A DNA stretch of 64,000 bases from Sialis fuliginosa (Eukaryota > Arthropoda > Insecta > Megaloptera > Sialidae), in NCBI GenBank assembly GCA_961205875.1, contig OY540822.1, positions 5,334,501-5,398,500 on the forward strand, written 5' to 3'. Both the position numbers and the translations under genes were made by a program. This document shows, in pieces, positions 746 to 49,483 of the stretch (position 1 is its first letter; each line of letters opens with the position of its first letter). Under the pieces are notes generated by a model. It did no database searches. It saw only the letters and a list, made by a program, of their open reading frames with translations, and was not told the origin of the DNA.

Positions 746-1729
746 ATGACAAGTCGAGGTATAGAATGCATGAAATGTTCAAATTCAGTAGGCAGATACG
801 ATGATAGTATTGATTGTTCTGTTTGTCTCAATAAATTCCACATTCAATGTGAAGAAATAAATATAAATGAATATCGTCAGTTAATAGATAGCAAATCAAT
901 AAAAACTTGGAAATGTAGTAACTGCTCACAACAAAATGAAATTAATGATTTAAATAAAAATAAAAACAATGAAAACGTTCCGTCATCATCTGAGATGTGC
1001 AATTTACCTAAATACATGTTGTTAGAAAATGAAAATAAATATTTGAAAAATGAAATAACTTTGCTACGTAAGCTAATAAGTGAGATGGATGATAAATTCG
1101 TTCTACTCAATGAAAAATTAGAACGTCAAGAGGAAGAATTAAATAATTTGAAAACTACAGTCAATAAACCAAACAAAAAACATGATAAAAAATCAAACAA
1201 TAAAACTCCAAATATTCCCGAAAACATTCAACCTAATAATCCAAATAGCGACATAAAAACCCCTAAGCTAGGCAACCAGACCTACGCCAGTGTACTAAAT
1301 TCAAATAACAACAAGAAAGATAATGATAAAAACCACATGAACGAAGAGATAAAGGATAATCACATCTCAGATAATGATGATTTCACTGAAGTTAAACCAA
1401 AAAAAAGGAGACAAAAATCAAATACGATTTTTGGTACTGGTAACACTGAAGAAAATTCTGTTTTTGAAGCAGCACCCAAACGTACTTGGCTGTTTCTAGG
1501 AAGGATATTGCCCAATGTCCAAGAAGAACATATTAAAAAATACATACAGAATAAATGTGAAAATACTAATTTAAATATTATATGCGAAGAAATTAAAATC
1601 AGAGGAGAAAACAAAACCTTTAAAATTGGAGTTGATTCTATACATGAAGAAAAACTATACGATCCGAATTTTTGGCCTTCGCGTGTTGCAATACGACGTT
1701 TCAACTTCAAAAATAATTTTTTTTCGTGA
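746..1729 (+). CDS. Non-LTR retrotransposon ORF1 protein with PHD-type zinc finger
   Basis: The product is a 327-residue RNA/DNA-binding accessory protein of the downstream ORF2, expected to act in the ribonucleoprotein particle. The N terminus has a C4HC3 finger (C8, C11, C24, C27, H32, C35, C57, C60). A leucine- and glutamate-rich coiled coil follows at about 90-140, then a lysine/asparagine-rich low-complexity linker. A C-terminal globular block contains KRTWLFLGRI and ends in WPSRVAIRRFNF, a motif seen in many insect ORF1 proteins. PHD-type fingers in ORF1 are known from CR1-like elements. Its stop codon (1727-1729) lies about 17 bases before the first ATG of ORF2, so reinitiation is a plausible expression mode. 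No break is seen. Confidence 0.85.
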   Translation: MTSRGIECMKCSNSVGRYDDSIDCSVCLNKFHIQCEEININEYRQLIDSKSIKTWKCSNCSQQNEINDLNKNKNNENVPSSSEMCNLPKYMLLENENKYLKNEITLLRKLISEMDDKFVLLNEKLERQEEELNNLKTTVNKPNKKHDKKSNNKTPNIPENIQPNNPNSDIKTPKLGNQTYASVLNSNNNKKDNDKNHMNEEIKDNHISDNDDFTEVKPKKRRQKSNTIFGTGNTEENSVFEAAPKRTWLFLGRILPNVQEEHIKKYIQNKCENTNLNIICEEIKIRGENKTFKIGVDSIHEEKLYDPNFWPSRVAIRRFNFKNNFFS

Positions 1730-1746
1730 ACAAAAGTGGGAAAACA

Positions 1747-4647
1747 ATGCATAACACATCAAGAACAATAACAGATACAAGTGAAAAAAGTAAAGTAAAC
1801 TTCAACTTTAATATACTACACTTAAACATTCAAGGTTTAAGATATAAAACACCGTCTATTGAAATATTTCTTGAACAACTTGAACTTGAAGCTGACATCT
1901 TATGCCTATCCGAACATTGGTTACGTAGTGAAGAAATCATTTTCACACATCTTGAGGGTTACAACCTATCATTTAGCCTATGTCGCAGTAGAAAGCTAAG
2001 AGGGGGAGTATGCATCTTCACCAAAAATAAATACGTAGCAATTCCATTACAGTTAACCGAATGCCAGGAGCAAGATTTCGAGTGTTGTGCACTAAAAATA
2101 TCTGAATTAAAAGTTATAATTTTGTGTGTTTATAGATCACCGCTCGGTGACTTAAACAACTTCTTCGAATTATTTTACCAGTGTATTGACTACTTATATA
2201 AACAAGAACCGCTTTTTAAATATATTATTTGTGGAGATTTTAATATTAATATTATGCAAACAAATAATACAGTTTCTACTCTTCAACAGATTCTCTTATC
2301 CTTTAATTTAAACATAGTACTGAACACTCCAACACGATCTACTCATAACTCTGCTACGTGCATCGACAATTTTTTTACTAATTTCAATAACTACCGCTTC
2401 GATATCATTGAAAACAATTTTTCAGACCACACTTGCCAATCTCTTCACTTATATATCAATACTGATACGAAGTACGACAAACAAATAATTTATAAAAGAA
2501 TTTTCTCCGAAGAAAATATATCATATTTCTCATGGCTTTTGTCAAACGAGCATTGGGGTACTGTATATACTAGTCAAACGACTAACAAATCTTACAATGA
2601 ATTTTATGACACCTTTTCTTATTATTTTGAGCTGTGCTTTCCTAAACGCAGATTAATTTTAAATACGTCTAAAAACGATAAAACCTGGATCAATGCAGAA
2701 ATAAAATTATTGCCCTCACACAAAAAAGACATTTATTATCTTATTAAAGACCTTCGAAATTTAAATTTTGATGTAACAAATATTACATGTTATTATAAAA
2801 AAATATGTAATACAATGAAAATACTAGTAAAAAATTCTAAAAAACATTATTACAATAATATTATACTTTCGTCAGATAATAAAACAAAATCCACTTGGGG
2901 AATTGTTAATAAAATTACAAATAAAACTCAAAATGATAGGAAGGGAAGTGGAAAATTACTTTCCTTAAACGACGAGTTCAACAATCATATCTCAGATCCA
3001 AATGAAATCGTTAATACTTTTAACAATTTTTTCTGTGATATCACAAAAAATCTAAACCTAAAAGATCCAGTTTTTAATTCTAGTCATATAGAACCTATAG
3101 CTAAAACAATTTTCTGTAGTGCTAGTGAAATATATAATATTAGTTTAAGCTTAAAAAATAAAAAGAGCTGTGGTTGGGACAATGTACCTTCAACACTAAT
3201 AAAATCTTGTGCCTACCTAATATCTGAACCTCTTAGTCACATAGCAAACAACATGTTTTTAGAGGGGACTTTTCCAGAAATTTTAAAAAAAGCAATTGTA
3301 AAACCTGTCTTTAAAAAGGGCAATGAATCATTGATTACCAACTATAGACCTATTTCTATTCTCTCAACATTTTCAAAAATTTTAGAAAAGATAATAAACC
3401 ACCGTTTAATAGAATTTTTATTAACTTTTAATGTCATTTCACAAAACCAATATGGATTTGTTAAAGGTCGATCAATAAATCAAGCTATTTTCAAAGCGAT
3501 CGATGAAATCTTAGACGCTATAAATAATAATGAGTATACAGCTGCAGCTTTCATAGATTTAGGTAAAGCCTTCGATAGTGTTGACAAGAACCTACTGTCT
3601 TATAAAATTAATAATCTAGGAATAAGAGGTAAAGCCCAAGAACTGATCCTATCCTACATGTCGAACCGTCTTCAATGCGTTTCTATCAAACGATATGAAA
3701 AAAATTTCGAAACTGAATATACCTCTGTCTATAAAGAAATTATCAAAGGCGTCCCCCAAGGATCAATTCTTGGGCCTACACTCTTCCTATTATACATAAA
3801 CGATCTTCCAAATATAATTCAAGAAAAAATGATTCTTTTTGCTGACGACACGTCAATTTTTTTTCGAGACCCAAATAAGGAAATGCTACTAAAAAATATA
3901 AGTACCTCCTTTCAACGTGTTATAACATGGTTTAACAGCAACAGCCTCAAAATCAATACGAATAAAACACAACTTATTTGTTTTAAAAATATTAACACTG
4001 ACCTTGTCAGTATTGCGGATAATGACCAAATTCCAGTCACTGAAGAGATTAAATTTTTGGGTCTGATTATTGATAGAAACCTGTCTTGGGTCTCTCACAT
4101 AAACCACATTATAAAAACAATATCAAAATTTAGCTACGCATTAAGAGTTCTGAGAGACATGGTTTCTCAAAATGTCTTGATACAGGTGTATTATGCTCAT
4201 ATACAGGCTATAATTACCTATGGAATTATCTTTTGGGGTCATTCCTCAAACGTAGTCAATATACTCAAACTGCAAAAGAGATGTCTAAGAACCATTACGG
4301 GTGCTGAACCACGTGAGCATTGTAGACCTCTCTTCAAAAATCTAAATATTTTAACAGTTGTAGACCTTCATATATTGGAGTGTTCAGTATTTGTTAAAAA
4401 CAATCCAGAATTCTTCAAAATTTATTTTCCTGACCATAACCATGATACAAGGAACAAACAAGATATGGTAATAAAACAAACAAAAAAATCAATAGTTTAT
4501 AAAAATGTTATTAATAACTGTATCAAAATATTTAATAAAATACCGAAATACATAAAAGATCAACCCCCAAAGAAATTTAAAATATATTTAAAACGACACT
4601 TAATAAACAAATGTCATTATAGTGTCAATGAATTCTTTGAAGAGTAG
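1747..4647 (+). CDS. Non-LTR retrotransposon ORF2: AP-type endonuclease and reverse transcriptase
   Basis: The frame is open from 1726, but the first ATG is at 1747 and is used here, giving 966 residues. The N-terminal endonuclease shows HLNIQG (about residue 26), SEHWL (about 55), GDFNI (about 162) and SDHT (about 225). The RT follows with NYRPISIL, AAFIDLGKAFDSVD, GVPQGSILGPTLF and the catalytic FADD near residue 700, then a thumb/C-terminal part with YGIIFWG. No RNase H is seen after the RT, as expected for CR1-like clades. The protein would nick target DNA and prime reverse transcription of its own transcript there. The frame is intact with catalytic motifs present, so this copy may be competent. 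Confidence 0.93.
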   Translation: MHNTSRTITDTSEKSKVNFNFNILHLNIQGLRYKTPSIEIFLEQLELEADILCLSEHWLRSEEIIFTHLEGYNLSFSLCRSRKLRGGVCIFTKNKYVAIPLQLTECQEQDFECCALKISELKVIILCVYRSPLGDLNNFFELFYQCIDYLYKQEPLFKYIICGDFNINIMQTNNTVSTLQQILLSFNLNIVLNTPTRSTHNSATCIDNFFTNFNNYRFDIIENNFSDHTCQSLHLYINTDTKYDKQIIYKRIFSEENISYFSWLLSNEHWGTVYTSQTTNKSYNEFYDTFSYYFELCFPKRRLILNTSKNDKTWINAEIKLLPSHKKDIYYLIKDLRNLNFDVTNITCYYKKICNTMKILVKNSKKHYYNNIILSSDNKTKSTWGIVNKITNKTQNDRKGSGKLLSLNDEFNNHISDPNEIVNTFNNFFCDITKNLNLKDPVFNSSHIEPIAKTIFCSASEIYNISLSLKNKKSCGWDNVPSTLIKSCAYLISEPLSHIANNMFLEGTFPEILKKAIVKPVFKKGNESLITNYRPISILSTFSKILEKIINHRLIEFLLTFNVISQNQYGFVKGRSINQAIFKAIDEILDAINNNEYTAAAFIDLGKAFDSVDKNLLSYKINNLGIRGKAQELILSYMSNRLQCVSIKRYEKNFETEYTSVYKEIIKGVPQGSILGPTLFLLYINDLPNIIQEKMILFADDTSIFFRDPNKEMLLKNISTSFQRVITWFNSNSLKINTNKTQLICFKNINTDLVSIADNDQIPVTEEIKFLGLIIDRNLSWVSHINHIIKTISKFSYALRVLRDMVSQNVLIQVYYAHIQAIITYGIIFWGHSSNVVNILKLQKRCLRTITGAEPREHCRPLFKNLNILTVVDLHILECSVFVKNNPEFFKIYFPDHNHDTRNKQDMVIKQTKKSIVYKNVINNCIKIFNKIPKYIKDQPPKKFKIYLKRHLINKCHYSVNEFFEE

Positions 4648-8699: not shown

Positions 8700-9048
8700 C
8701 AAAATAATTGACGTACGTAGGGCGTCGCATTAAGAAAATGAAGAAATATATATACAAACAAACTTTAATAATAACATAAAAGAGTGGTTGAGATTCTGAG
8801 GAACAGATCTCTGCTACCAGCAAGGGTAAAATATTAAGGGCCCCCTTAGCATAGCCCAATATAAGAATGTAAAATAATTAATAAAGAAAATAAATAAATA
8901 ATACGTTACGTGAACTGAATTACACTATCAGGGGTCGAAACGAGTTCAGTGTTCAAAAATACTGATTTTACTGACACAGAAATCTAAAAATACTGACTTT
9001 TACTGACTATCTGAACCGAGTTAAAAATATAGGTGTTATGTATTAAAA
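8700..9048. repeat. Direct repeat R, first copy (includes hAT left end)
   Basis: The stretch is nearly identical to 9568-9914; the only clear difference is a 2-base indel near 8956/9822. It contains 229 bases of flanking DNA, then a hAT left terminus (CAGGGGTCGAAAC at 8929-8941) preceded by CACTAT. The rest of the hAT is attached only to the second copy, so this copy arose by duplication after the hAT had inserted. Confidence 0.9.
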
Positions 9049-9053
9049 AAAAA

Positions 9054-9572
9054 AACCGCTTTTTAAATATATTATTTGTGGAGATTTTAATATTAATATT
9101 ATGCAAACAAATAATACAGTTTCTACTCTTCAACAGATTCTCTTATCCTTTAATTTAAACATAGTACTGAACACTCCAACACGATTTACTCATAACTCTG
9201 CTACGTGCATCGACAATTTTTTTACTAATTTCAATAACTACCGCTTCGATATCATTGAAAACAATTTTTCAGACCACACTTGCCAATCTCTTCACTTATA
9301 TATCAATACTGATACGAAGTACGACAAACAAATAATTTATAAAAGAATTTTCTCCGAAGAAAATATATCATATTTCTCATGGCTTTTGTCAAACGAGCAT
9401 TGGGGTACTGTATATACTAGTCAAACGACTAACAAATCTTACAATGAATTTTATGACACCTTTTCTTATTATTTTGAGCTGTGCTTTCCTAAACGCAGAT
9501 TAATTTTAAATACGTCTAAAAACGATAAAACCTGGATCAATGCAGAAATAAAATTATTGCCCTCACACAAAA
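9054..9572 (+). pseudogene. 519-bp copy of CR1 ORF2 endonuclease region
   Basis: The segment aligns without gaps to 2207-2725 of the CR1-like element upstream. I see one difference (C at 2339, T at 9186, giving Ser to Phe). It encodes the middle and end of the endonuclease (from CGDFNI to WINAEIKLLPSHK) and nothing else. It has neither the 3' end nor the ATT tail expected of a retrotransposed copy. It lies exactly between the two R repeats, with short homologies at both joins (CAAAA on the right, A-run plus CCGC on the left). Confidence 0.9.
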
Positions 9573-9914
9573 TAATTGACGTACGTAGGGCGTCGCATTA
9601 AGAAAATGAAGAAATATATATACAAACAAACTTTAATAATAACATAAAAGAGTGGTTGAGATTCTGAGGAACAGATCTCTGCTACCAGCAAGGGTAAAAT
9701 ATTAAGGGCCCCCTTAGCATAGCCCAATATAAGAATGTAAAATAATTAATAAAGAAAATAAATAAATAATACGTTACGTGAACTGAATTACACTATCAGG
9801 GGTCGAAACGAGTTGTGTTCAAAAATACTGATTTTACTGACACAGAAATCTAAAAATACTGACTTTTACTGACTATCTGAACCGAGTTAAAAATATAGGT
9901 GTTATGTATTAAAA
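9568..9914. repeat. Direct repeat R, second copy (original hAT left junction)
   Basis: This copy matches 8700-9048. It is continuous on its right with the hAT element, so it is the parental copy. The hAT terminus starts at 9797 and is preceded by CACTAT (9791-9796). Confidence 0.9.
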
Positions 9915-15740: not shown

Positions 15741-15935
15741 CCACCTTCAATTAAAATAATTAGTTAAGTCACATAAATAGAATAATATTTTTCTGAAACA
15801 CCTGATAATTAAAATAAACATTATAAAAACATAATTTCTTCATATGTGGCCGCGGGCCAGCCCTGCTCTAGAGTATAACATGATATATATATTTTTTGTT
15901 TAGATAAATGACCATTTTTAATATTTTGATGATTT
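15741..15935. other. Non-coding stretch with a hAT-like terminus
   Basis: At about 15845-15873 the sequence TGGCCGCGGGCCAGCCCTG reads, in complement, as a CAGGGCTGG.. hAT-style end. No partner end or duplication was found, so this is only a possible solitary terminus. Confidence 0.3.
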
Positions 15936-16054
15936 GTATTGGGATTCATAAGGTCAGTAGAAATAAAAGACAGTTGTTATAGTCGATATAGATGCATAAA
16001 ATCAGCGCTTTTATTCCTACTGGAAAAACGGAGAAACTGTGGTTTCTAGTCACT

Positions 16055-16180
16055 TAAACTAAAATATACACCTTAACCACAGTCTGGAACTGTTAGGCTC
16101 CTGATGAGGACTTCTTGTGAAGTCGAAACACGTGTCGAGTGACATTGTTTTATTGTGGTTAAGGTGTATATTTTAGTTTA
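16055..16180. repeat. 27-bp perfect inverted repeat enclosing the hammerhead
   Basis: 16055-16081 is the exact complement of 16154-16180. In RNA it would form a long stem on the distal side of helix I, placing the ribozyme inside a hairpin of about 126 nt. Confidence 0.92.
16096..16141 (+). ncRNA. Type I hammerhead ribozyme
   Basis: The core CTGATGA is at 16101-16107. Stem II is GACTTC/GAAGTC (16109-16114 with 16119-16124) with loop TTGT. The conserved GAAA is at 16125-16128. Helix III is only two pairs with loop ACGT (16130-16133), and the cleavage site would follow C16136 in GTC. Helix I is GCTC/GAGT next to the core (16097-16100 with 16137-16140). The tiny helix III is typical of hammerheads in Penelope-like elements and retrozymes. 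One oddity is an extra G (16108) between the core and stem II, which could reduce activity. Confidence 0.8.
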
Positions 16181-16377
16181 AGCGCTTTTATTGATATTGT
16201 ATGTTTTTTCGGAATCTCAATGTTATTCCATCTTCAGTGCATTATTATTTTTACATATATCATGGCTAAAATTAACACAAAATCAATAGATGCGCCCTGC
16301 TAGCTAACAGTCATTGTTGATATCCATAAAACTTCCCTGGTGGGTTTCCGACACCAGGCTACGCCGCCGACGGAAAT

Positions 16378-16433
16378 CACGACCAGGTCAGCTCTTGCCG
16401 TCTCCCACGACCAGGTCAGCTCTTGCCGTCTCC
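16378..16433 (+). repeat. 28-bp tandem duplication in a GC-rich island
   Basis: The 28-base unit at 16378-16405 is repeated exactly at 16406-16433, inside a GC-rich patch (about 16318-16670). The patch contrasts sharply with the AT-rich surroundings. Open frames here look like by-products of composition (proline/arginine-rich). It may be a fragment of a GC-rich retroelement leader. Confidence 0.75.
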
Positions 16434-16710
16434 CACGACGCCCGCACCGCCGCCCTCGGACGCTATCCCAGGTCCGCCCACGGGCGCTTACAACGCCGAC
16501 GCCCCCCGCCGTCGCTCACGCCGCCCAGGCTTTCGCGGTCACCTCCCGCGTGACCCCTCTACACGACGCCCGCCGTCGCCATCTCAACCGCATCTTGGAC
16601 GCCGATGCCGTCCAACACGTCAGTCTTCATCCCTCCAAACTCAAGATGCAGATTACCCCATAACTACGAGATATTAATACACGATATCTAGTTTTATTAA
16701 TATATATATT

Positions 16711-22022: not shown

Positions 22023-24753
22023 CACCTAATTCTGTTTTTACACGGTAGATACGTTCCAGAAAAAACCGTGTAAAAAAAAATCGTGTAAAAAAAGACATGA
22101 AGTACATAGAAAAAAAGGGGAATAGTTCTATACCCTGAAAAAATAGTTTAAAAAAATGATTCATACAAAAAAAACTCTTATAAAAGCCAAATTAAATTTG
22201 TATGTGCATTCATGCACAGTTTATTTCATAAAAACAAAAGGCAATTCAATAATTACAGTTAAAGTAACATAATTATAAAATTATCGCAAGTTTAGGAACT
22301 GAAAACTAATACAAAAAACAATATAAATTAATAAACAAAGAGTACATAATTCAATTCTTAAAGTAAATTAAAACAAATTAAAAATCATTAAAAATTCATT
22401 AACAAAAATTGTAAAAAATCAAGGTGATGAAAATAATATAGCTCTATTCGCTATCATAATCGGATATCATACGTGATCGCTTGCGTAAGACTGGTTCAAC
22501 ATCGCTATCATCACTTGAAATATTTTGTACGTCATTATCACGTTCCAATTGTGAGGTTCTATCTGTGGTATCTTTAACCAGATTAGGATTTTCGCTTCCC
22601 GACTGGATAGCACCGCATTTGACAACAAAATCGGTTATTAGCCGTTGTGATCCAGTTTTGTTTAACTCTTTGTATAATTCATGGTAACGAGCCATACAAG
22701 ACTTCAGGTCACGTTGAAACTGTGTAGCCCTTTCGCCAATAGGATCGTTTGTGACGAAATGATTTCCTAATTTATTAGCAAGTTGAAGACCTTCTAGAAT
22801 TAAATTTGCAGTTAGTTGAACTGGTTCATCACTATCACTGTTTTCTGTAGAATCAACAGTATCTAAGGCAACCTCTATTATTTCGTCTTCACTTAGAACT
22901 TTCTCAGCTAACAGTTCGTCAATATCATCAATTGCTAAGTCATCAAAGCCCTCTCCACCAACTGCGTGTGCCAAAGTGATTATAGAGGAATACTCGTTCG
23001 TATGTTCAGGCACATAATTTTTGCTTTTGACACATTCTGGCCAAATTGCTTTCCAACAGGCGTTTAGAGTTGATGATCGTAATTCCGATAATGCCAACGC
23101 AGCATGTTTGACGCAATCTTTAACGGAAAACTTTTTCCAAGCATCAATTACTGTAAGTGTTTTATCATTATCTATATTGTCCAAAATATACTGGAAAGTT
23201 CGCTTGATGTAGTAAGTTTTAAATGTAGCAATGATTCCCTGGTCAAGTGGTTGAATTATCGATGTCGTATTTGGTGGCAGGAACAAAACCTGTACATTTT
23301 CGTGGTCCAAAACTGGATGGCCGGGAGCGTTGTCCACAAGTAGAAGAACTTTGAATACCAGACCTTTTTCATTCATATATCTTCTAACTTCTGGGACAAA
23401 ACATTTATTGAACCATTCAGTAAAAATGGCAGTTGTCACCCATGCTTTTTTATTCGCCATCCAATAAACCGGTAAATTATTAAAGTCGACACCTTTCATT
23501 GATCGTGGCTTAAGTGCGCGATTAACAAGTAGTGGCTTCAGCATACGGTCTCCGGAAGCATTGCTACAAAATAAAAATGTCACCCGATCTTTTGCTGCCT
23601 CAAAACCACCAGCACTCTTTTGGGATTTTGCTACATATGTGCGGTTTGGCATTTTTTTCCAAAAGAGTCCAGTTTCGTCTGCATTAAAGACCTGATCTGG
23701 ACTGTACCCACCATCGGCAATTATTTCAGCAAGTTTCGGTATAAATTCTTTGGCAGCCTTCTCATCTCCAGAAGCAATTTCTCCTTTGATTTTTATGTTA
23801 TGAAGTGCGTGCCGTTCGAGAAATCCTGTTAACCATCCTGTACTTGCAGAAAATATATAACGCTTATCTTTATCTGATTGAGAGGATGTAGATGGTTCAA
23901 GTTCCTTTATCTGCTTGTAAATTCTCAATGCTTTCTGCTTGATTGTATTTCCATCTACTGGTATCCTTTTTTGTGTATTGTCCTCTATCCATATTACCAG
24001 TGCTTTTTCCATTTTTTCTTTAACAGAATCTCTTGTATACGATGATAACTTAGCAGATAGTTTCGTTCCAGATACTACCGATTTCCTAATAGCATCTTTA
24101 TTTCGTTTAATGGTCCTTATTGTAGCTTCGTTCAAACTAAAAATCTTACCTAAAGACGTTGAACCTTCTCCATTTTTGAGGCGATCTAAAATTTCAATTT
24201 TAGTTTCCAAAGAAATACCTTTCCTTTTGAGTTTCGGAGTTGTAGTATTCGACATTTTTCTTAGGGCATTAAAAAAAAGTTAATAAAGATACAATAAATT
24301 CGAATAAAATATAGCTTACCTGGTATTCGTATCGATTTAAAAAGAATTTTTATTTCACTTAGTCAACAGCTATAAAAACACGTCCAATTTTATTGAAACT
24401 AAACACAAGACTAAAATAATACTTAAGCTGCTATGAAAATAATTTAGAAAGGGAAATTCCCTAACTATTTTATAAATAACAGATAGAAAAAAACAATCTA
24501 GAAAATTACGGTTAATGTTTACGCCGATAAGGACGTAATCTAGATTTTTGTTAGAAATTTTGTTTGGTCGCCAGATGGCGTTTATTTAAGCTACGATTTG
24601 TTTTTATACTTGTTCTTTAAAATTTAAATCAAATGGCTTTTTATAATCGTGCTAAATCGAATCAAATCGTGTAAAAACGGAAATTTTTTTTTTTCTAGAC
24701 CGTGTTAAATCAAAACCGTGTAAAAAAAGACCGTGTAAAAACAGAATTGGGTG
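22023..24753 (-). mobile_element. Pogo/Tigger-like DNA transposon, apparently complete
   Basis: The ends are CACCTAATTCTGTTTTTACACGG and the complement of CACCCAATTCTG.., flanked by TA (22021-22022 and 24754-24755). Reversing the insertion restores ACATGTATTTTAAATGGG, which is present as an empty site in the left repeat of the host element. Several ACCGTGTAAAA motifs sit behind each end (22040-22090 and 24640-24740). The single gene inside is unbroken. Confidence 0.93.
22444..24255 (-). CDS. Pogo/Tigger-type DDE transposase (jerky/CENP-B related)
   Basis: This 603-residue protein is complete. A pipsqueak-type HTH occupies about 10-60 (GISLETKIEILDRLKNGE, SLNEATIRTIKRNK). A CENP-B type HTH follows at about 75-160 (ALVIWIEDNTQKRIPVDG, STGWLTGFLERH). 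The DDE domain has D193 in NADETGLF, D308 in LLLVDNAPGH and D338 in QPLDQG, a DD29D spacing normal for Tigger/jerky proteins. An acidic C-terminal tail follows. It would bind the ACCGTGTAAAA-type terminal motifs and insert at TA. Intact frame, TA duplication and recognisable terminal repeats suggest a young and possibly active copy. The first ATG fits the family N terminus. Confidence 0.95.
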   Translation of the reverse strand: MSNTTTPKLKRKGISLETKIEILDRLKNGEGSTSLGKIFSLNEATIRTIKRNKDAIRKSVVSGTKLSAKLSSYTRDSVKEKMEKALVIWIEDNTQKRIPVDGNTIKQKALRIYKQIKELEPSTSSQSDKDKRYIFSASTGWLTGFLERHALHNIKIKGEIASGDEKAAKEFIPKLAEIIADGGYSPDQVFNADETGLFWKKMPNRTYVAKSQKSAGGFEAAKDRVTFLFCSNASGDRMLKPLLVNRALKPRSMKGVDFNNLPVYWMANKKAWVTTAIFTEWFNKCFVPEVRRYMNEKGLVFKVLLLVDNAPGHPVLDHENVQVLFLPPNTTSIIQPLDQGIIATFKTYYIKRTFQYILDNIDNDKTLTVIDAWKKFSVKDCVKHAALALSELRSSTLNACWKAIWPECVKSKNYVPEHTNEYSSIITLAHAVGGEGFDDLAIDDIDELLAEKVLSEDEIIEVALDTVDSTENSDSDEPVQLTANLILEGLQLANKLGNHFVTNDPIGERATQFQRDLKSCMARYHELYKELNKTGSQRLITDFVVKCGAIQSGSENPNLVKDTTDRTSQLERDNDVQNISSDDSDVEPVLRKRSRMISDYDSE

Positions 24754-25997: not shown

Positions 25998-26847
25998 TTT
26001 TATTATATTATTATAAGTTTGTTGAATGTATTCGATATTGGTTCTATTGTTAATAGCATTATCATTTTTAATTATGTGTATTGCTTCTGATACTAATCTC
26101 TGTTTTAACTTTATTTGGATATCGTAAATTTTTGGGTTATCAAAATTAAAATTGTGTCCTGTATTATTACAATGCGTTTTAGGGCAGTCTGCTCTTTGGC
26201 ATATTTATGTGAATTAATACGATTTTTGAGCATTTGTTTTAACTGATCTATATAACTTGCAGAACATTGGTTACATGCAATCCATATATGGCGTTAGATC
26301 TTTTTTTAGTTTCAATTTTGTTTTTTAATTTGGAAAAATATATTTTTGAAATATGGTAATTTTTATCTACTTGAGTAATGTTATAATTTTTTGCTAGTTG
26401 TTTTAATTTTTCTGATAAGATGGGTACATAGGGCATGACAATATAGGTATTTTTATTTTCTCGAGAATCAGAGTTATCAACTAAGTATTTAGGTACTATC
26501 ATGATTATGTCAGCTAACACCACAGACAGGGCAGATCCCATAGGGGCACCAAAAATTTGACTATAAAAATGGTTTTTGAATTGTAAATATGAACTATTGC
26601 AGCAAAATTTGAGAGCGGTTAGAAAATCTTTTTTGGGGATATTAGTGCGAGATTTTATTTTGTTCCACTGTTTTTCTATATTATTCAGAGTTTCTTTTAT
26701 GAGGATGTTAGTAAAAGGAGATTTAACATCCAAGGAAACTAATTTATAATTATTAGGAATGTTTTTTTTTATGAAATCATATAATTGCCAGGAATCTTTT
26801 GTATATTTGTCATCTTGTGTAGGGGAACAGAAGGCAAAATGGCTCAC
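25998..26847 (-). pseudogene. Penelope-like element fragment: partial RT and GIY-YIG region
   Basis: The minus strand encodes SLDVKSPFTNILI and APMGSALSVVLADIIM, RT motifs of the Penelope type. It then passes abruptly to VPILSEKLKQLAKNYNI, the linker before the endonuclease, so the RT part with the catalytic aspartate pair is deleted. The GIY-YIG domain is recognisable but frameshifted: ACNQCSASYI..LKNRINSHKYA near 26250-26190, then THCNNTGHNFNFDNPKIYD to a stop near 25998. AT-rich codon use and style match the N-terminal Penelope fragment at 40030-41340. Confidence 0.82.
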
Positions 26848-33059: not shown

Positions 33060-33144
33060 TGGTAGCAATTCGTGGTTTGGGTGAAAATAAAATTTTATGT
33101 AAAGAAAAGTAAAGTGAGATTATAAGTTCCAAGAATATTCAAAA

Positions 33145-36100
33145 ATGGCTGATGAAGTAAGAATTCCATTGTTTGATGGAAAAGAATATGAATGTTGGAA
33201 GAAAAGATTAATAATGATTTTAAAATTGAAGAAATGTGAAATAGTTGTAAATAGAACAAGAACAACTGAAGATACAGAAAATGAGTGGAGTGAAAAAGAT
33301 CTAAAAGCTATAAATGTAATATACAGTGGAATTTCAAATGATCAGTTACAGTTTATTAAAGAAAAAGAAACGGCCTATGAGATAATTAAAAAGTTCGATG
33401 AAATGTATTTAAAAGAATCAACTGCACTCCAAATATGTGTGAGAAATAAATTAGAGAGATTAAGGTTAAGAGATTTTGAAGACACAGCTACATTTTTTAC
33501 TGAATTTGAAAAATTAATAAATGAATTAAAGAGTGCTGGTGCAAAAGTATCTGAAAAAGAAAAGTTAAGTTACATGATAAAGATGCTCCCAAGTTCGTTG
33601 AGTTACGTCGGGGACTTAATTGATGTTTTAAAAGAGGGTGACCAGACTGTTGAATATGTGAAAAGTAAAATTAAAATGATTGAAGTGAAAGAAAAAGAAG
33701 AAAATAGTAAAAGCAGTACAAGTGTATTCAAGACAGAAAGAAAACAAGATCAAACTTGTTTTAAGTGTGGCAAGTATGGACATTTCAAATATCAGTGTAC
33801 GAAGCCGGATGGAAATTTTTGGAAGCCTAGGGGTGGCATGCAGCAGCGAGGAGGCGGGCGTCAACAGAATTGGCAGTACCGTGGCAACAGTAGCAGTCGA
33901 GGTAGTCGAGGCTCAAGTCAACATCGTCGTGGTGGCGGTTGGCAACAGAATCATCAAAGTCAACGAAATGAAGATGGTAACGCAAGCAGTTTTTGTACGG
34001 AAGTCGAGGTTAAATCCGAATCAAACGAATTATTAGTCAATAGTTGTAATGGTAAAGTAGAATGGTTACTAGACAGTGGGTGTTCTGACCATATTGTTAA
34101 CAATGATGAATACTTTTATGAATCTATTGTTCTTAAAATACCAGTAAGTGTTAAAATTGCTGATGGTCGTATATTAAAAGCTACTAAAATAGGTAATATA
34201 TTACATGAATTCAATGTTTATGGTCAAATGGTTAAGAATAAAATGTCAAATGTTTTCTATGTTAAAGAAATGGATAAAAATCTAATTAGTTTCGGTAAAG
34301 TTACAAGTAAAAATAAAATTGTATCAATGGGAAATACTTCAAAAATATATAATACAGATGGTAATATAATCGCAATAGCATTTAAGAATAATGATGTATT
34401 CCGTATGACAAGTACAATTATAAAAACAGAAGTAAATGTAACAATTAAAAGTAATATGACGGAAAAAGAAAAATTGCATAGGACATTAGGTCATGTAAAT
34501 TTTAATTATTTAGAAACTATGTGTAACAAACAAATTTTAGAAGGTCTACCAAAAGAGTTAGAGTCTGATTATTTCAAATGTGCCATATGTCTAGAAAATA
34601 AAATGCACAATTTACCATTTAAGAATGAAAGGACCAGAGCAAAAGAAATTTTAGAAATTGTACACACAGATCTAAATGGACCACATTATACTACTGGTTT
34701 AAACGGAGAAAAATATTTTTTAACTTTTATTGATGATTTCAGTAAAGTGGCTCAAGTTCATGTAATAAAATCCAAAAGTGAGGTTTATAATTGTTTTGTT
34801 AACTATGTAAACTTAATTGAAAATAAGACGGGAAAAAAAATAAAGAAATTACGTTGTGATAACGGTAAAGAATATATAAATAATGAAATATATAAGTTTG
34901 TGGGAGAAAAGGGGATTTATATTGAACCTTGTCCACCATATGTTCACGAATTAAATGGGACAGCAGAAAAATATAATAGGGATATAATGGATATGTCAAG
35001 ATGTTTGTTAGCTGAAGCAAAAGTACATAAACGGTTTTGGCCAGAAATTGTAAAAACAGCAACCTATTTGAAAAATAGAATTCTAACTAATACAATTATA
35101 AAAAACAAAACTCCTTATGAGATAATGTTTGGTGAAAAACCAGGTATAGAACATTTAAGATTGTATGGTAGTAGGGTTTTTGTGAGAGTACCAGAACAAA
35201 AAAGAAATTCAAAATGGGATAGAAAAGCAGATTTAGGGGTTCTACTAGGTTATGAAAATGTTGGTTATAGAGTTCTAATAAATAATAAAATAGTTGTAGC
35301 TAGACATGTTGATATTATTGAAGAAGGTACATCTTGTATTGGTCTTGATTCAGAAAAAGATTTAGAAAATGTAAATAAAATTCGAATAAATGAAAATGAA
35401 AGTCAAGATGATAGTGATATAAATAGAGAAAATAATCAAGATACAGAACTAAGACGATCATCTAGAGAAAAAAGGAAACCTGCGAAGCTAAAAGATGATA
35501 ATTTTGTTTATAATAATATTGTCTATGTTAATTATGTAAATGCGAGTAACCCTATTTCTTATACTGAAGCGATGAACTGCGAAAATCCTGAAAATTGGAA
35601 GGAAGCTATGAATAAGGAAATAAGTTGTTTAATTAAAAATAAAACTTGGGTCTCTGTTGAAAGGCCAAATGACAAAAAAATTCTAGATTTAAAATGGGTT
35701 TATACTATAAAAGCTAATGACATTTATAAAGCAAGGTTAGTAGTTAGGGGATATCAACAAAATGAGTTGATTGATGATATTTATTCACCTGTTGCAAGAA
35801 TGCAAACGTTAAAAATTTTATTGTCATATTGTTGTAATAATGGTTTAATTATAATGCAAATGGATGTCGAAACAGCCTTTTTAAATGGCAAAGTTAAATC
35901 TGAAGTGTATGTAAAACAACCTCAAGGTTTTGAGGATGGTACAAATAGAGTGTTAAAACTTGATAAAGCACTTTATGGTTTAAGGGAAAGCCCTAGAGCT
36001 TGGTATGAGTGTTTTGATGACTATTTAAGAAACTTAAATTTCAAAAGAAGCATAAATGATAATTGTCTGTATGTATTGAATGAGGAAGGTAATAATGTTT

Positions 36101-37056
36101 ATTTAATCTTATTTGTTGATGATCTACTAATTTGCTGTAAAGATGAAGAAAAATTAAATAATATAAAGAGCTTGTTGTTGAAAAGATTCCAAATGAAGGA
36201 TTTAGGTAATATTAAGACATATTTAGGTATTAATATAAGTTATGACTGTACTAATGGAAAAATGACTTTAGATCAAGAAAATTATATTGTATCATTAGAA
36301 AAAAAATATGAACTAGAAAACTGTAAGTTGTATGCGACTCCAATGGAGCAAAATTTAAAATTATTACCTGCTAAATTAGTAAGTGACGAGATAAAATATA
36401 GAAATTTAATCGGTGCATTGTTGTACATTAGTTCAGGTACAAGACCTGATATAAGTTTTTGTGTGAACTATCTAAGTCGATTCCAAAACTGTTATGATAA
36501 TACTCATTATAAATATGCATTAAGAGTTCTTAAGTATTTGATGTTAACCAGAGATTTAAAGTTAACTTATTATAGAAATATAGATGCAGAAATTTTAAGT
36601 TGTTATGTAGATGCCGACTGGGCAGGGGATGTGACAGACAGAAAATCTACAACAGGTTATGTAATTAAAATGTATGAAAATGTAATTTTTTGGAAATCAA
36701 AGAAACAGAATAGTGTAACAAAGTCTTCCACATCAGCTGAATATGTAGCATTGTCTGAATGTGTAAGCGAGTTAAAAATTGTGAGAGATATTCTGTCTGA
36801 CTTCAATATTGGAGTTTCTGCACCTGTAAAGATATATGAAGATAATTCCGGTGCTATTAGCATAGCCAAGCATGGAAATTTTACAAAAAATTCAAAGTAT
36901 ATTGAAACTCATTATCATTTTGTAAATGAAAATTATATGAACAAAATAATAGAAGTTGTAAAAGTAAATTCAGAAGAGAATGTTGCTGATATTTTAACTA
37001 AATCTCTTGGTACAGTGAAATTTGAAAAGTTTAGAAAAGCGTTGTGTATATTATGA
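33145..37056 (+). CDS. Copia gag-pol polyprotein
   Basis: A single uninterrupted frame of 1303 residues. Gag occupies about 1-200 and ends in a zinc knuckle CFKCGKYGHFKYQC (C205), followed by a Gly/Arg/Ser-rich RNA-binding stretch. Protease has LLDSGCSDHI with D310. Integrase has an HHCC zinc site (about 446-490), then D508 in HTDLNGP, D572 in DNGKEY and E about 608 in NGTAEKYNR. RT has LVVRGYQQ, MDVETAFLNG and the catalytic LFVDDLLI near residue 990. RNase H has YVDADWAGD and STSAEYVALSE. This Copia order (integrase before RT) is complete and no catalytic residue seems lost, so the element looks autonomous. The ATG at 33145 is the first after the primer site. Confidence 0.97.
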   Translation: MADEVRIPLFDGKEYECWKKRLIMILKLKKCEIVVNRTRTTEDTENEWSEKDLKAINVIYSGISNDQLQFIKEKETAYEIIKKFDEMYLKESTALQICVRNKLERLRLRDFEDTATFFTEFEKLINELKSAGAKVSEKEKLSYMIKMLPSSLSYVGDLIDVLKEGDQTVEYVKSKIKMIEVKEKEENSKSSTSVFKTERKQDQTCFKCGKYGHFKYQCTKPDGNFWKPRGGMQQRGGGRQQNWQYRGNSSSRGSRGSSQHRRGGGWQQNHQSQRNEDGNASSFCTEVEVKSESNELLVNSCNGKVEWLLDSGCSDHIVNNDEYFYESIVLKIPVSVKIADGRILKATKIGNILHEFNVYGQMVKNKMSNVFYVKEMDKNLISFGKVTSKNKIVSMGNTSKIYNTDGNIIAIAFKNNDVFRMTSTIIKTEVNVTIKSNMTEKEKLHRTLGHVNFNYLETMCNKQILEGLPKELESDYFKCAICLENKMHNLPFKNERTRAKEILEIVHTDLNGPHYTTGLNGEKYFLTFIDDFSKVAQVHVIKSKSEVYNCFVNYVNLIENKTGKKIKKLRCDNGKEYINNEIYKFVGEKGIYIEPCPPYVHELNGTAEKYNRDIMDMSRCLLAEAKVHKRFWPEIVKTATYLKNRILTNTIIKNKTPYEIMFGEKPGIEHLRLYGSRVFVRVPEQKRNSKWDRKADLGVLLGYENVGYRVLINNKIVVARHVDIIEEGTSCIGLDSEKDLENVNKIRINENESQDDSDINRENNQDTELRRSSREKRKPAKLKDDNFVYNNIVYVNYVNASNPISYTEAMNCENPENWKEAMNKEISCLIKNKTWVSVERPNDKKILDLKWVYTIKANDIYKARLVVRGYQQNELIDDIYSPVARMQTLKILLSYCCNNGLIIMQMDVETAFLNGKVKSEVYVKQPQGFEDGTNRVLKLDKALYGLRESPRAWYECFDDYLRNLNFKRSINDNCLYVLNEEGNNVYLILFVDDLLICCKDEEKLNNIKSLLLKRFQMKDLGNIKTYLGINISYDCTNGKMTLDQENYIVSLEKKYELENCKLYATPMEQNLKLLPAKLVSDEIKYRNLIGALLYISSGTRPDISFCVNYLSRFQNCYDNTHYKYALRVLKYLMLTRDLKLTYYRNIDAEILSCYVDADWAGDVTDRKSTTGYVIKMYENVIFWKSKKQNSVTKSSTSAEYVALSECVSELKIVRDILSDFNIGVSAPVKIYEDNSGAISIAKHGNFTKNSKYIETHYHFVNENYMNKIIEVVKVNSEENVADILTKSLGTVKFEKFRKALCIL

Positions 37057-42732: not shown

Positions 42733-44423
42733 ATGAGTCACAACAAACACGTTTTGAAATTAAGTGCAATTGCAAATTTCTTCTCCGCAGCGGATGAAAG
42801 AAGGTTGATTTCTCGAGGTGAAAATTCGGTGGAATCCAACCACATTAAAAGTTTTCACTTTGTGCCTGAACTATTATTATTGAAGGGTGAAGTGCATGCG
42901 AGTATGAGAGACCGTTTTTATACTGTTGAGGTAAAGCATATATGTTACTCCTAAAAAACAACAATGTTATTTCAATCTAACACATCGCAAACTTATACAT
43001 TGATCTTTTACGATGCATCGATAACTTACATCAATGTTTTCTAAACATCGAATACTTTTATAGAGTATTTAATTTATTTTAATTATCGGATCAAGATTGA
43101 TTTTTTCGATACATCGCATGAATCCAAAAAAATTGATACCTTAACGATACGTCGAATTACATCGGTACACAAAAAGCGAACATCAAGAATGTTTTTGATG
43201 CATCGATATATATAGAATATCCCTAATATATATTATTTATCATTTTATTTTTAAAACTATTTTAAGCTTGGGCATAATATTGTAGGTTAACCTTTTCAAG
43301 GATGGGGAAATAAAGTGTGTTTCCTGCACATGTCCACGAGGTCAGTTCTTGTGTCATCACGTTGCAGCTGTTTGCATCTTTGGACACCATAATATATCGG
43401 TGACAGATGTGGAATGTCGGTGGGCGGCAAAAAAAATTAAAGAAGAAGATGTCAAGACCATTGATGAAATGTATGTGGCAAAAAGTCATGTGTCAGTGGA
43501 TACTGAGCTTACCGAAGATGAAGTAAAAAAATTTTATAAAAGTTTACAACAGTTTGGAACTGCTGTTGGCTTTACGTGGCTCTTACGTCCTGAGCCAACA
43601 ACTCAACTCAATATTCTTCTTGATATCGAAGAATATGTATTTTCAGAAGAATATTGTACAGCAGATGATAAAAAAAATGCTTTCAGGATCTGAAGATACA
43701 ATTAAAGAAGTCTGCAAATATACAGTGGGTCAGTCGGCAAATGAAAATTGGCTGACATGGCGGAAAAACCGATTAACAGCCAGCAATTTTGGAGTTAATT
43801 TGGCAGCGATAGCCAGAAAAAAGTACCCGCCTTCTTTGTTTAAACGATTAACAGGTAAGAAAAATATATATTCTTACTTACTTTTAAATATTTTATACAG
43901 GGCTTTTTTAACATTTCTATTTATTACAGGTTTCTACAACCTAGATAATATTAAATCCATTCAATGGGGTATTACTCATGAAGATGTGGCCCGAAAACAA
44001 TTTTCAGAAGAAACAAAGTTACAGGTGGTACGCACGGGTCTATGGCTACACAGCTGCGGTTTTCTTGGGGCGACTCCAGATGGTCTTGTTGGAGATAATG
44101 CTATAATAGAAATAAAGTGTCCCTTTAAGTTCAGGGATCAATCAATGAGCGTTAAGCTACAAACTGATCAATCATATGTAGTTTATTTTATTGGTGATGA
44201 AATAATGCTCAATAAAAACCACGATTATTACCACCAAATTCAAGGCAATTTGGCTATTTCTGGTCAGGAACTATGCCATTTGTTTATTTGGACACCTCAA
44301 GAAAACATTTTAATCGATGTCCACAGGGATGATAAATGGGTTGACAATTTAGAGCTATTGGAAACATTTTACTTTGATAAGTATTTACCCCATATTATTT
44401 CCAATGTTTTAGATGATGTATAA
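42733..44423 (+). CDS. SWIM zinc finger and YqaJ-like nuclease of the ISL2EU element
   Basis: Exons are 42733-42930, 43286-43854 and 43930-44423; both introns have GT..AG ends and fitting phases. Exon 1 encodes MSHNKHVLKLSAIANFFSAAD and a DRFYTVE strand. Exon 2 starts with a SWIM finger CTCPRGQFLCHH (C-X-C-Xn-C-X-H). The nuclease starts at ANENWLTWRKNRLTASNFG, and exon 3 holds WGITHEDVARKQF, GATPDGLVG and EIKCPF, the acidic D..ExK core of YqaJ/lambda-exonuclease folds, then HDYYHQIQGNLAISG. One frameshift sits in the A-run near 43672. It probably processes DNA ends during transposition (inference). The second intron (75 bp) is in frame, so retention would not break the protein. Confidence 0.8.
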
Positions 44424-44681: not shown

Positions 44682-46241
44682 CTAATAGTCATATAAGTGC
44701 TGAACCTCTTTTATGAGAGGAAACTGTAAATTTGTGAGGGCTGCACAAACCTGAAAAACAACAGATGCATGAGGGATTAAAGTGGCCGGTATTAAAAACA
44801 TAATCGTATAACTCTTTATTCGTCTTATGGCACGTTCCACGTGAATTCGAGCTTTTGCTATTGTTCTTGTCCTAATAACTTGCTCCGGAGTGAACTGAGG
44901 TGTAGTTAAAAAAGGTGGCACATTCAACGAAACACCTTCTGGTAACACATCAGATATGAGAAAGCCTTTATCAGCAAGTACTAAATCCCCAGCTGACAAT
45001 TTTTCAGTAATTCCACGATGGGCTGTAATTTTTTTGTCAGATGTGGACTTTGGATATAACTTACTTGCAAAAGTAATCACACCATTGGGTGCAACTCCTA
45101 TTAGTCCCTTTAAGGTGTTGCGGTGTTTATATGAACTGTAAGTTGCGCGTTGTTTTTCCATATTTTTTGGGTGAATTGTACTCACTTCTGTACAATCAAT
45201 AATTATCCTGCAGTTAGTAAACGAACTAAAAGATACGGGGCTGCACATTTTGTTCTTTGTTCGTGATGGAATATCTTTCATCAGTTGTTTAAATAAAACT
45301 TCATGCAATGCATATAGCCATGTTTTAAAAATATTAGAAACCGTTTCACGGCTTATGTTGAACCTTGCAGCCAGGTCATCATTTAATAAATTTAATTTTA
45401 ATTTCATTAACGTGAGAAGTAACTGGTCAATTTTCGACAACTTTACAACTTGCCAGCCTAAGAAATAATTTAATTTTTTATTTTCAAATAACGAAAATAA
45501 TGTTAAAAAAATTTCTTTTTTAGGAAGTCCCGTATAAACATTTATTAAATGGTCATTATTCTCAATATTGAAACGAAAAACTTAATGTTAAGTTTTTCAT
45601 CTTATTTTTCAATTGCTCTATTTCTTGTTTAAAAAAATAGTTTTCTGCCTCTGACATGGCTACGAACTGTTAGGAATGTTCAAAAGTTTTCGGTTCGACT
45701 TCTGGTACAGGAGTTTCCACTTCAATTTCTGGCTCAGCAGGTGGTGTTGAAGGATCCAATTGCATTGGAATCTCACTTTCATCACTGGGTACTTGTCTCT
45801 GTAAACCAGAAGGTCCGGCATCGCTGTCAGCTGCTTCGATAGTCTTCTTCCTGTGATATCCATATTTTATACACAAATATATATGTAAATTGGCATGCCT
45901 GTATTAACCTTCCAATTTTTGGTTTGTGTTCAGAAATGTCCAGTTTTTTCCCCACATTAAAATCAAAAATAGTAGGTCGATTCTTCCGATCAATGTTAAC
46001 AAAATGACAGCTACAGATGCGAGAATATTTCGAAGGCTCCCTGTCTTTTCGTCTAAAACATTGTATAATGCATAAAATTATGAAATTCACAAAACAAAAT
46101 AACCATGTGTAATGCGTATGGTATCTACCTTATTAATTTAATCCACTTTTTCAGTTCACTGCTTTCCTTCGGAAAAACAAAAAATGTACAATCATGGCTT
46201 GTACTATAATGTTTGCAGGTGGGTGCAAAACACATAACCAT
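44682..46241 (-). CDS. THAP-domain DDE transposase of the ISL2EU element (disrupted)
   Basis: Exon 1 (46241-46129) and exon 2 (46052-45909) encode a THAP zinc finger: CFAPTC, then ICSCHFV, with the family phrase PTIFDFN. Exon 3 from 45850 has an acidic/proline-rich linker, an in-frame TAA near 45675 and a coiled coil (AENYFFKQEIEQL). A frameshift near 45590 follows. The frame is then open to 44682 with an HTH (LAARFNISRETVSNIFKTW) and the DDE core. Counting from the Met at 45440 these are D82 (IIDCTE), D157 (LVLADKGF) and E202 (HVERAIRRIK). Introns have GT..AG ends in matching phase. All catalytic residues are present, but the stop and frameshift make this copy probably inactive. Confidence 0.85.
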
Positions 46242-46785: not shown

Positions 46786-49130
46786 TTAAATACTAGTTCG
46801 GACAGCGGTCAGTGGTGACTCGGACGCACCTGATTGGTGCGCGCTCGAGCCTGTGCCCTCGTGTCGTACACCAGTCTCAGCTGGAGGGGGTGGCCTGGTG
46901 AACAGATGTCGCCAGGCGCTGCTGAGTGGATATCCGTCGTCTCTGTTTATGTTATTATTGTTTTTGAGGATCTCGATCGATTCTCGGACAATGCGGGGGT
47001 AATAGCGGGATGTTTTCGCTAGGACCTCGGTTTCGTCGAATCGGATACTATGGTTCTGCGTGTGCGCATGCTCTGCCAACGCAGATTTGTCTAATTGTTT
47101 TAGACGTGTCTGTCTGGCATGCTCTTGCACCCGTGTCCCTATAGTACGTCCGGTTTGGCCGATATACACGAACCCACAGCTACAAGGAATAGAGTATACT
47201 CCTTCAGTGTGTAGTGGTATGTAGTCCTTGGGGTTCCTGAGTCTCTGGGTGATTTTGTTAGGGGGCGTGAAAATTGGTCTGATATCGTGACTCCTTAACA
47301 GTTTACACAACCGGTCTGTTGTGCCGCGTACATACGAAAGTATGGCTGTAGATATGTAATCGGGATCCGGTTTCGGCTAATCTGTTTTAGGGGTCGTCTT
47401 ATCGTGTATGGCCCCCGTAATGTCCCGGGTTTTGTAACCGTTCAGCTTGAGGGCTGAGGTGACATTATCCAGTTCACTTCGGAGGTTAGTCGGATGTGAC
47501 AGGGAGAACGCTCTGTGTACCAGAGTTCACCACTGAGCGTAATTGGGAGGGATGGTGGTGTGACGACGCATTGAGGTAGCGGTTTGTGTGTGTGGGTTTG
47601 CGGTACACACTGTGTACTAGCGAACCCTCAGGGGTGCGTTCTACCAGGACATCTAGAAAAGGCAATTTGCCTTCAACTTCTGTTTCCATGGTGAAACGGA
47701 TGTTGGGGTGTTGATTGTTTAGGAAGTCGAGAAAAGAGGGGAGGGTGTCCCGTCCATGGGGCCAGACGACGAAAGTGTCATCAACGTATCTGTACCAACA
47801 TGTCGGTTTGAGCGGAGTATGCTCGAGGGTTTCAGTTTCGAATGCCTCCATAAATATGTTGGCAACAACTGGTGACAGCGGGGAACCCATGGCGGTACCT
47901 GATACTTGTTCATAGTATTCGCCTTGATAGAGAAAATATGTCGATGTGAGACACGCTTGAATGAGGTCCGGGAGGTCGGATGCCTGGTCGTGTGAGCCCA
48001 AGAGTTGATTAATAATATTAATCGTGTCCTGGACTGAAACCTTAGTGAACAGTGACTCTACGTCAAAACTCACTAAGATGTCACCTGGGTTGGTTTTTAG
48101 AGTATTCAGGATCGACACGAAATGTGACGAGTTCCTGATGTGATGTGGGGATTTGTCCACGAAAGGTTGTAGTGAGTTCGACAAAAATTTTGCCAGCTTA
48201 TAGGTGGGTGAGCCTATAGCACTCACAATAGGGCGGAGGGGGGTGTTGGGTTTATGGATTTTCGGCAACCCGTAAATCCGAGGCAGCCGGGAGTCCTGTG
48301 GGAGGATAGTTTTCTGGGTGGTGACCGGGATGGTGCTTGAGGACTTAATCAAAGTTTTGATGTAAGTCTCGGTTTTGGTGGTGGGATTGTGTCTTAGTTT
48401 TTTGTATGAAGTCTCGTCGGAAAGTAATTCGTCCATTTTTCTGTGACAGTCGGATGTGTCTAGGACCACCGTGGCGTTACCTTTGTCTGCGGCGAGGATT
48501 ATAATGTCCTCGTCGTTCTTAAGGTTTTTCAGGGCTTCCCTTTCGTCTCGTGTGATGTTGGGTTTCGGAGGTTTCGCATTTTTCAGGATCATACTCGTTT
48601 CATGACGGATATTCTCCGCCACGTCCCGAGGGGACCTTACTTAGTGCTGATTCCACACTACACACGATTTCCTCCATAGGAATCGTCCTCGGAGTAATGG
48701 CGTAGTTCGGTCCCTTAGCCAAAATGTCTGTAGCATCCTGGGAGAGGGGTTTGCTCGATAAGTTTACAACCGTGTGAGCGGGACTGGTCCGTGGTCTGGG
48801 TTTTTGTGTTTTGTGAAGTCTGTCGTATTTATGTATGTGTTTTTGTGTGATAGTGTGTGCGGTCTTGTCTGTTTGTTTGTGTGTAATGTCGTCAATTTTG
48901 TCAAAATGGGTATTCGTCATTGTACAACTCAATTTCAGGTGCAGGCTATATAACTGTTTGTTGATATGGTCAAGTTTACGACGCGTGTCCGTGATGCGCT
49001 CTCTGGTTAGAGCCATACTGGCACGTGCGTAGATGTTGTTCACCTGTTGCGTATGGAATTGAGGTTTAATTCTGAGGAACGCAGGGATAACCCCATTGTC
49101 TCGGCATCTTTGTAAAAATGCCAAGGAACA
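46786..49130 (-). pseudogene. Penelope-like element protein (RT plus GIY-YIG), near full length
   Basis: The N-terminal region (49124-48610) has VNNIYARASMALTRERI and NLSSKPLSQDATDILAKGPNYAITP. The RT runs from 48622: DEDIIILAADKGNATVVL, LPRIYGLPKIHKPNTPLRPIVSAIGS, SFDVESLFTKVSV, GTAMGSPLSPVVANIFME and the catalytic CWYRYVDDTFVVW (about 47790). The C-terminal GIY-YIG endonuclease is at 47310-46786 (GVYSIPCSCGFVYIGQTGRTIGTRVQEH). Breaks are a frameshift near 48615, another near 47525 and a TAG near 47378. Lack of LTRs and the RT-GIY-YIG order define the class. GC content is clearly higher than in its neighbours. Confidence 0.93.
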
Positions 49131-49483
49131 GAGAAGTTTGAACCGGTTAGTACGTAGCTATTCAAAAGTTTTTAAAAATTTTAAAATAATTCTCCACGCT
49201 TTATTAGACCAAAATAAATATTTTGTGTATCTTGTACTTTTTTTCTAAAGTTTGTGGTTTCTGAGTAAAAAAATCTTGAAAGTTCAAAATCTCGAATTAT
49301 TTTGTTAGATACCTTGGAAAGCTTGGGTTGTTCAAAAAAAAATTTTCAAGATAAAATTCAAGGTCATGGTCGTTCGTCCCCCTCCTTGCCCAACAACTTT
49401 TGTATAAAACTTTTTTTATTATTTCGCTTACCGGACGAGTTATTCTCCATTAAAGGTTAAAATGATCCACCCGGTATATTTTA
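49131..49483. other. Non-coding AT-rich stretch
   Basis: No gene recognised. A phrase near 49465 (GATCCACCCGGTATATTTT) looks like a small mobile-element end, but no partner was found. Confidence 0.4.

Follow-up and report, generated by a model that had tools for sequence, protein, structure and literature searches.

Positions 16016 to 16180 (+ strand) of the window, by which we mean the whole 64-kb stretch of DNA that was analysed, hold a mobile-element insertion with the layout of a type I hammerhead ribozyme. This conclusion is well supported by the anatomy of the motif, by a target-site duplication and by an empty site in a related repeat. The unit probably represents one insertion of a tiny, non-autonomous retroelement with a mode of action like that of animal non-LTR retrozymes.

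An inserted unit with a type I hammerhead layout

The inserted unit is 165 bp long, has a G+C content of 38% and carries no coding sequence, its longest stop-free frame being 37 codons. Direct repeats of at least 9 nt are absent from its interior, and it is present at the 16016-16180 locus as a single unit, with no tandem arrangement. BLAST detected no second copy in the 64-kb window; once the unit's own arms, described below, are set aside, the best remaining hit covers 28 nt at 79% identity (E 0.34). The unit lies between two copies of AGCGCTTTTATT (16004-16015 and 16181-16192), which are identical at 12 of 12 positions and have different neighbors, C versus A on the 5' side and C versus G on the 3' side. 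The left copy has ATT at its end, at the top-strand junction. These coordinates and the noncoding character of the unit had been proposed in an earlier note on this DNA, and both hold. Direct repeats of 12 bp at a spacing of 100 to 400 bp are not rare alone, since the window yields a list of 16, of which two overlap, so it is the exact placement of this pair around the unit, together with the empty site, that carries the weight.

The insertion resides in an older host repeat at 15932-16277 (+), whose extent is that of its match to a diverged relative at 307-469. The joined flanks (15932-16015 plus 16193-16277) align with this relative at 69.6% identity. As the earlier note had recognized, the relative has an uninterrupted site, AGCGCTTTATT, which is one T shorter and contains no insert. 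The simplest reading is therefore that the insertion took place after the two host repeats had diverged. The left flank at 15955-15969 is an inverted match (14 of 15 nt) to 16008-16022 at the left junction, which spans the target duplication and enters the unit; templating from the flank was considered as an explanation and set aside, the match being likely due to chance. On the 3' side of the host repeat, a G+C-rich stretch includes 2.2 mismatch-free copies of a 28-bp unit (16378-16439).

The hammerhead occupies 16097-16140 (+), and its parts follow one another in the type I order. Stem I consists of four base pairs between GCTC (16097-16100) and GAGT (16137-16140). It encloses the core CTGATGA (16101-16107), one extra G (16108), a 6-bp stem II in which GACTTC (16109-16114) and GAAGTC (16119-16124) are separated by TTGT, the GAAA element (16125-16128), and a short helix III (C, ACGT, G) that leads through TC back to stem I. 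Helix III has two pairs, A16128-U16135 and C16129-G16134, around an ACGU tetraloop. The GTC site ends at 16136, and cleavage is predicted after C16136. The core, GAAA and GTC elements are thus where the earlier note had placed them, and the motif presents the conserved CUGANGA/GAAA/UH core with three helices, open at helix I, apart from the additional G before stem II. In the model, an alternative in which G16108 pairs with C16124 and the next G bulges out costs 4.0 kcal/mol more.

Helix III coincides with an 8-nt palindrome, ACACGTGT. Two units could consequently pair at this position and form a dimer, which is how type I hammerheads whose helix III is weak reportedly function (PMC7229834; PMC6155905). 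The axolotl Amex2 motif, whose helix III likewise has two pairs and a tetraloop, has been likened to invertebrate motifs (PMC7229834).

The covariance search, which the earlier note had suggested as a check, counts in part against the assignment. The Rfam Hammerhead_1 model (RF00163) agrees weakly in a 401-nt search (17.7 bits, E 0.17), below its gathering score of 34. It is absent from the three matches with E up to 10 over the whole window, in which no Rfam family reaches its gathering threshold. The hammerhead assignment therefore rests on the core, the helices and the context. A pattern that includes stems I, II and III, and that was written after the match had been seen, occurs once in the window and was found twice in 300 first-order Markov windows. 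When helix III is made optional, the same motif is again the only one in the window, with 0.01 expected per window (100 simulations), and no further hammerheads emerge. If no stems are required, the motif is not unusual, as 0.45 occurrences are expected and 33 of 100 shuffles contain it.

The long inverted repeat and predicted folds

The ribozyme is enclosed by a perfect 29-bp inverted repeat with arms at 16053-16081 and 16154-16182 (+), the longer of only two perfect inverted repeats of at least 18 nt with a spacer of at most 300 in the window. The last two bases of the right arm (AG) lie within the 3' target duplication, so that the 3' end of the unit does coincide with a long stem, as had been noted earlier. 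On the left, the repeat falls short of the end of the unit by 37 nt.

Such a stem could instead be the scar of a retrotransposition event and not part of the element. A source with only one arm would have folded back its 3' end (TGTGG on CCACA), primed its own synthesis, been extended along the left arm up to TTAAG and become attached to the target through the 2-base AG match. We regard this origin as unlikely. The arms match at 29 of 29 positions, and hence lack any G-U pair, and the insertion stops at the arm end with a 2-base overlap with the target, both as self-priming would have it; moreover, self-priming with palindromes has been inferred for rotifer Penelope elements (PMC3846280). However, the rotifer palindromes, as described there, sit in head-to-head pseudo-LTR arrangements and not around a ribozyme, and extensive self-pairing is in any case reported for the RNAs of animal retrozymes (PMC7229834, PMC4918200). 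The perfect 12-bp target duplication also argues against this origin, as it is the signature of an ordinary staggered-cut insertion.

Returning to a retrozyme-like element in which the stem is an integral part, the predicted fold of the linear unit has an energy of -69.6 kcal/mol (z -8.15). The minus strand also folds well (-60.8 kcal/mol, z -11.02), because the long stem dominates either strand. Folded as a circle, the unit is predicted to form a closed rod with 128 of its 165 nt paired, at -65.8 kcal/mol, whereas 200 shuffles average -31.2 (sd 4.3). The rod end opposite to the ribozyme is a predicted hairpin at 16019-16050 (+; z -2.29, with 2 of 200 shuffles as good), and the inner 72 nt adopt a three-hairpin arrangement (z -2.33; 3 of 200 shuffles as good). 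The 29-bp stem accounts for most of the excess folding energy, and the 16019-16050 hairpin and the inner 72 nt exceed shuffles only modestly.

The three-hairpin fold retains stem II, and it replaces stem I and helix III by other pairings. One of these is a competing hairpin at 16125-16151 (+; z -2.03; 9 of 200 shuffles as good), which pairs across the cleavage site and so represents a blocked form. Transcripts were grown in the model from four starts to 15 ends, and the hammerhead was preferred in none. In all 60 start-end pairs the hammerhead pairing is 4.1 to 12.2 kcal/mol above the minimum, in a model that omits tertiary contacts and has no scale from known hammerheads, and the probability of the first stem I pair is at most 0.031. 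In the whole unit, the ribozyme pairing is 7.2 kcal/mol above the minimum. When only 46 nt are folded (16096-16141), stem I has a probability of 0.41-0.43 and helix III of 0.01. Because the last base of the core, 16140, is transcribed while most of the blocking strand is yet to be made, a cotranscriptional cut is conceivable, although the model does not favor the core even then.

These properties bear on the idea that no hammerhead element is present, and that a chance core has arisen in a miniature hairpin transposon or foldback insertion. The Rfam score under threshold and a minimum-energy fold that is not the ribozyme fold are what such a chance core would be expected to give. Nevertheless, three stems and a core are rarely found together by chance, and a typical miniature inverted-repeat element, unlike this unit, does not leave 37 nt outside its left arm. 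We therefore consider a chance core very improbable.

A microRNA reading was also rejected. The best two sub-threshold Rfam matches in the segment, both on the minus strand, are mir-2363 (39.1 bits, E 4.2e-06) and MIR841 (21.5 bits, E 0.036). Both match the long stem as a hairpin and score far below their gathering thresholds (90 and 200, respectively), so the unit is not called a microRNA.

A candidate route of mobilization

If the unit works like a retrozyme, transcripts of copies elsewhere, probably in tandem, would be cut by the hammerhead, and a host RNA ligase would circularize the resulting piece of roughly 165-167 nt, giving a closed rod. The ribozyme would lie at one tip of this rod and the 16019-16050 hairpin at the other, and the hairpin that competes for the cut site would assist in holding the circle closed. 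A Penelope-like or LINE enzyme acting in trans would then start copying at a point away from where the ribozyme cuts. The predicted cut after 16136 falls inside the unit, and the copy terminates at the foot of the long stem, which argues that the template was not a plain linear product ending at the cut. Either a circular RNA or an uncleaved transcript would fit, with copying begun internally.

Reverse transcriptases of both the Penelope-like and the LINE kinds are encoded in the window. A Penelope-like element is present in pieces at 46786-49157 (-), and includes a reverse transcriptase at 47486-48640 (Pfam RVT_1, 7.5e-13). A GIY-YIG-like stretch, GVYSIPCSCGFVYIGQTG, was recognized by eye within 46786-47376 (-), and Pfam and PDB searches did not recognize it. 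At 26248-26847 (-), a second short stretch resembles a Penelope-type reverse transcriptase by eye; Pfam gave an unrelated match below the cut-off, and PDB gave none. A LINE at 1717-4647 (+) has an endonuclease and a reverse transcriptase in one frame of 976 amino acids, and a partial second copy, nearly identical by eye, is found at 9047-9601 (+).

Other mobile elements in the window include a Copia-type gag-pol in a single open frame of 1312 amino acids (33118-37056, +) and a 611-amino-acid frame with DDE_1, Tc5-type and CENP-B-type domains, corresponding to a pogo/Tigger-like transposase (22444-24279, -). A frame with a YqaJ recombinase domain (43527-44423, +) adjoins a DDE_Tnp_4 transposase frame (44682-45581, -), and the two possibly form one transposon. 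Taken together, the mobile elements of the window make its source look like an animal.

Since the pseudo-LTRs of Penelope-like elements also bear type I hammerheads, the unit might be a solo pseudo-LTR or a fragment of such an element. Hammerheads are reported in Penelope-like elements (PMC7761336, PMC6155905), one of these elements is present in the window, and rotifer elements are described with 8-10-bp target duplications, solo pseudo-LTRs and palindromes (PMC3846280). However, Penelope hammerheads are described as minimal and usually without helix III (PMC7761336, PMC6155905), whereas a short helix III is found here. Furthermore, BLAST reveals no match between the unit and the Penelope-like element of the window, beside which the only direct repeat, and so the only candidate for pseudo-LTRs around it, is a 26-nt pair at 73%. 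A Penelope origin of this kind is thus quite unlikely.

For a retrozyme-like unit mobilized in trans, the Penelope-like element of the window is a plausible candidate for the kind of helper required, though it has no sequence link to the unit. The mobilization by Penelope-like enzymes that the earlier note suggested is accordingly no more than plausible. In vitro, an Anolis Penelope-like enzyme is reported to cut at ATT in AT-rich DNA and to start copying inside a stem-loop, not at the RNA 3' end; hammerhead cleavage is dispensable, and the position where copying starts shows no homology to the cleaved DNA (PMC11167929). The left target duplication of our unit similarly ends in ATT, but, in contrast to the Anolis system, the unit end has a 2-base match to the target, which may be due to chance. 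Hammerhead repeats in Nematostella have 15-bp duplications that were likened to LINE insertions (PMC4918200), which suggests that the helper here may also be a LINE. We infer the identity of the helper enzyme as one of these two kinds.

A more specific proposal is that the unit represents one complete turn around a retrozyme RNA circle no larger than the smallest one published. The 29-bp stem would then be a cis-signal, with Penelope-type copying starting at its base, and the RNA, folded as a ribozyme while being transcribed, would later switch to a blocked fold and so keep the circle shut. We offer this combination speculatively, and consider it doubtful. If the circle model is true, tandem dimers are expected with the junction ...TTTAGTTTA or ...TTTAAG running into CCTACTGG. 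In the published accounts that we consulted, the return of retrozymes into DNA is inferred and not demonstrated. The present insertion, for which both ends and an empty site are available and copying seems to have started at the foot of a stem and not at the cut, provides a small concrete case for checking models with circular templates and internal starts when further copies have been read.

Comparison with known hammerhead elements

Insects and crustaceans are among the animals named as retrozyme carriers (PMC7229834). Animal non-LTR retrozymes are described as tandem units, dimers or more, with repeats of 150-450 bp and a G+C content below 50% (PMC7229834). Their RNAs are reported to be about 170-400 nt long (PMC7229834, PMC4918200) and more than 70% paired (PMC4918200), and in most of them the ribozyme can still form in the circles as published (PMC7229834). 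The unit resembles these elements, as they are described, in its type I hammerhead, its short, noncoding and low-G+C sequence (165 bp, 38%), its long target duplication (12 of 12 bp, where more than 4 bp is the criterion) and the high self-pairing predicted for its RNA.

The unit also departs from the published retrozymes. It is solitary where those are dimers to multimers, it lies at the lower edge of the published sizes, and it has a perfect 29-bp stem at its end. In addition, with 128 of 165 nt paired and the ribozyme pairing 7.2 kcal/mol above the minimum, its ribozyme is predicted to be blocked. The likeness to retrozymes drawn in the earlier note thus stands for size, G+C content, target duplication, helix III shape and self-pairing, and fails for the tandem feature, which is lacking at this locus; this copy is consequently not filed as a proven retrozyme. 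By analogy, we count it as a member of a wider kind of small hammerhead retroelements, presumably working as a retrozyme does.

Like Penelope-like elements (PMC11167929, PMC3846280), the unit contains a hammerhead. Its target duplication and inverted repeat recall the 8-10-bp duplications and palindromes reported in rotifers, where duplications are 8, 9 or 10 bp in some cases and absent in others (PMC3846280), and its junction and stem recall the AT-rich ATT target and internal stem-loop start described for Anolis. Unlike them, it has no coding sequence, and therefore no reverse transcriptase of its own; it does have a helix III, and it does not match the Penelope-like element of the window. 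Schistosome hammerhead repeats are likewise small and non-autonomous, but are said to carry tRNA sequence (PMC4918200), whereas ARAGORN found no tRNA in 15900-16300; this description sets them apart.

Searches of public viral contigs with three patterns, and of bacterial and archaeal genome contigs with one pattern, gave no matches, as expected for an animal repeat. Among the matches listed, a solitary, stem-bounded hammerhead unit was not recognized in titles and abstract openings of the open literature on hammerheads, retrozymes, Penelope elements and palindromes, a scope that gives weak evidence of absence. The earlier note's impression that a compact monomer ending in a long stem is undescribed is therefore uncontradicted within that literature, although its components are in print: the plant retrozyme model has circular templates that yield monomeric copies (PMC4918200), and palindromes are reported in Penelope elements (PMC3846280). 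Animal retrozymes with the traits shared by this unit are thus already known from the accounts cited here, and this copy is distinguished from them by being solitary and very short and by ending in a perfect stem.
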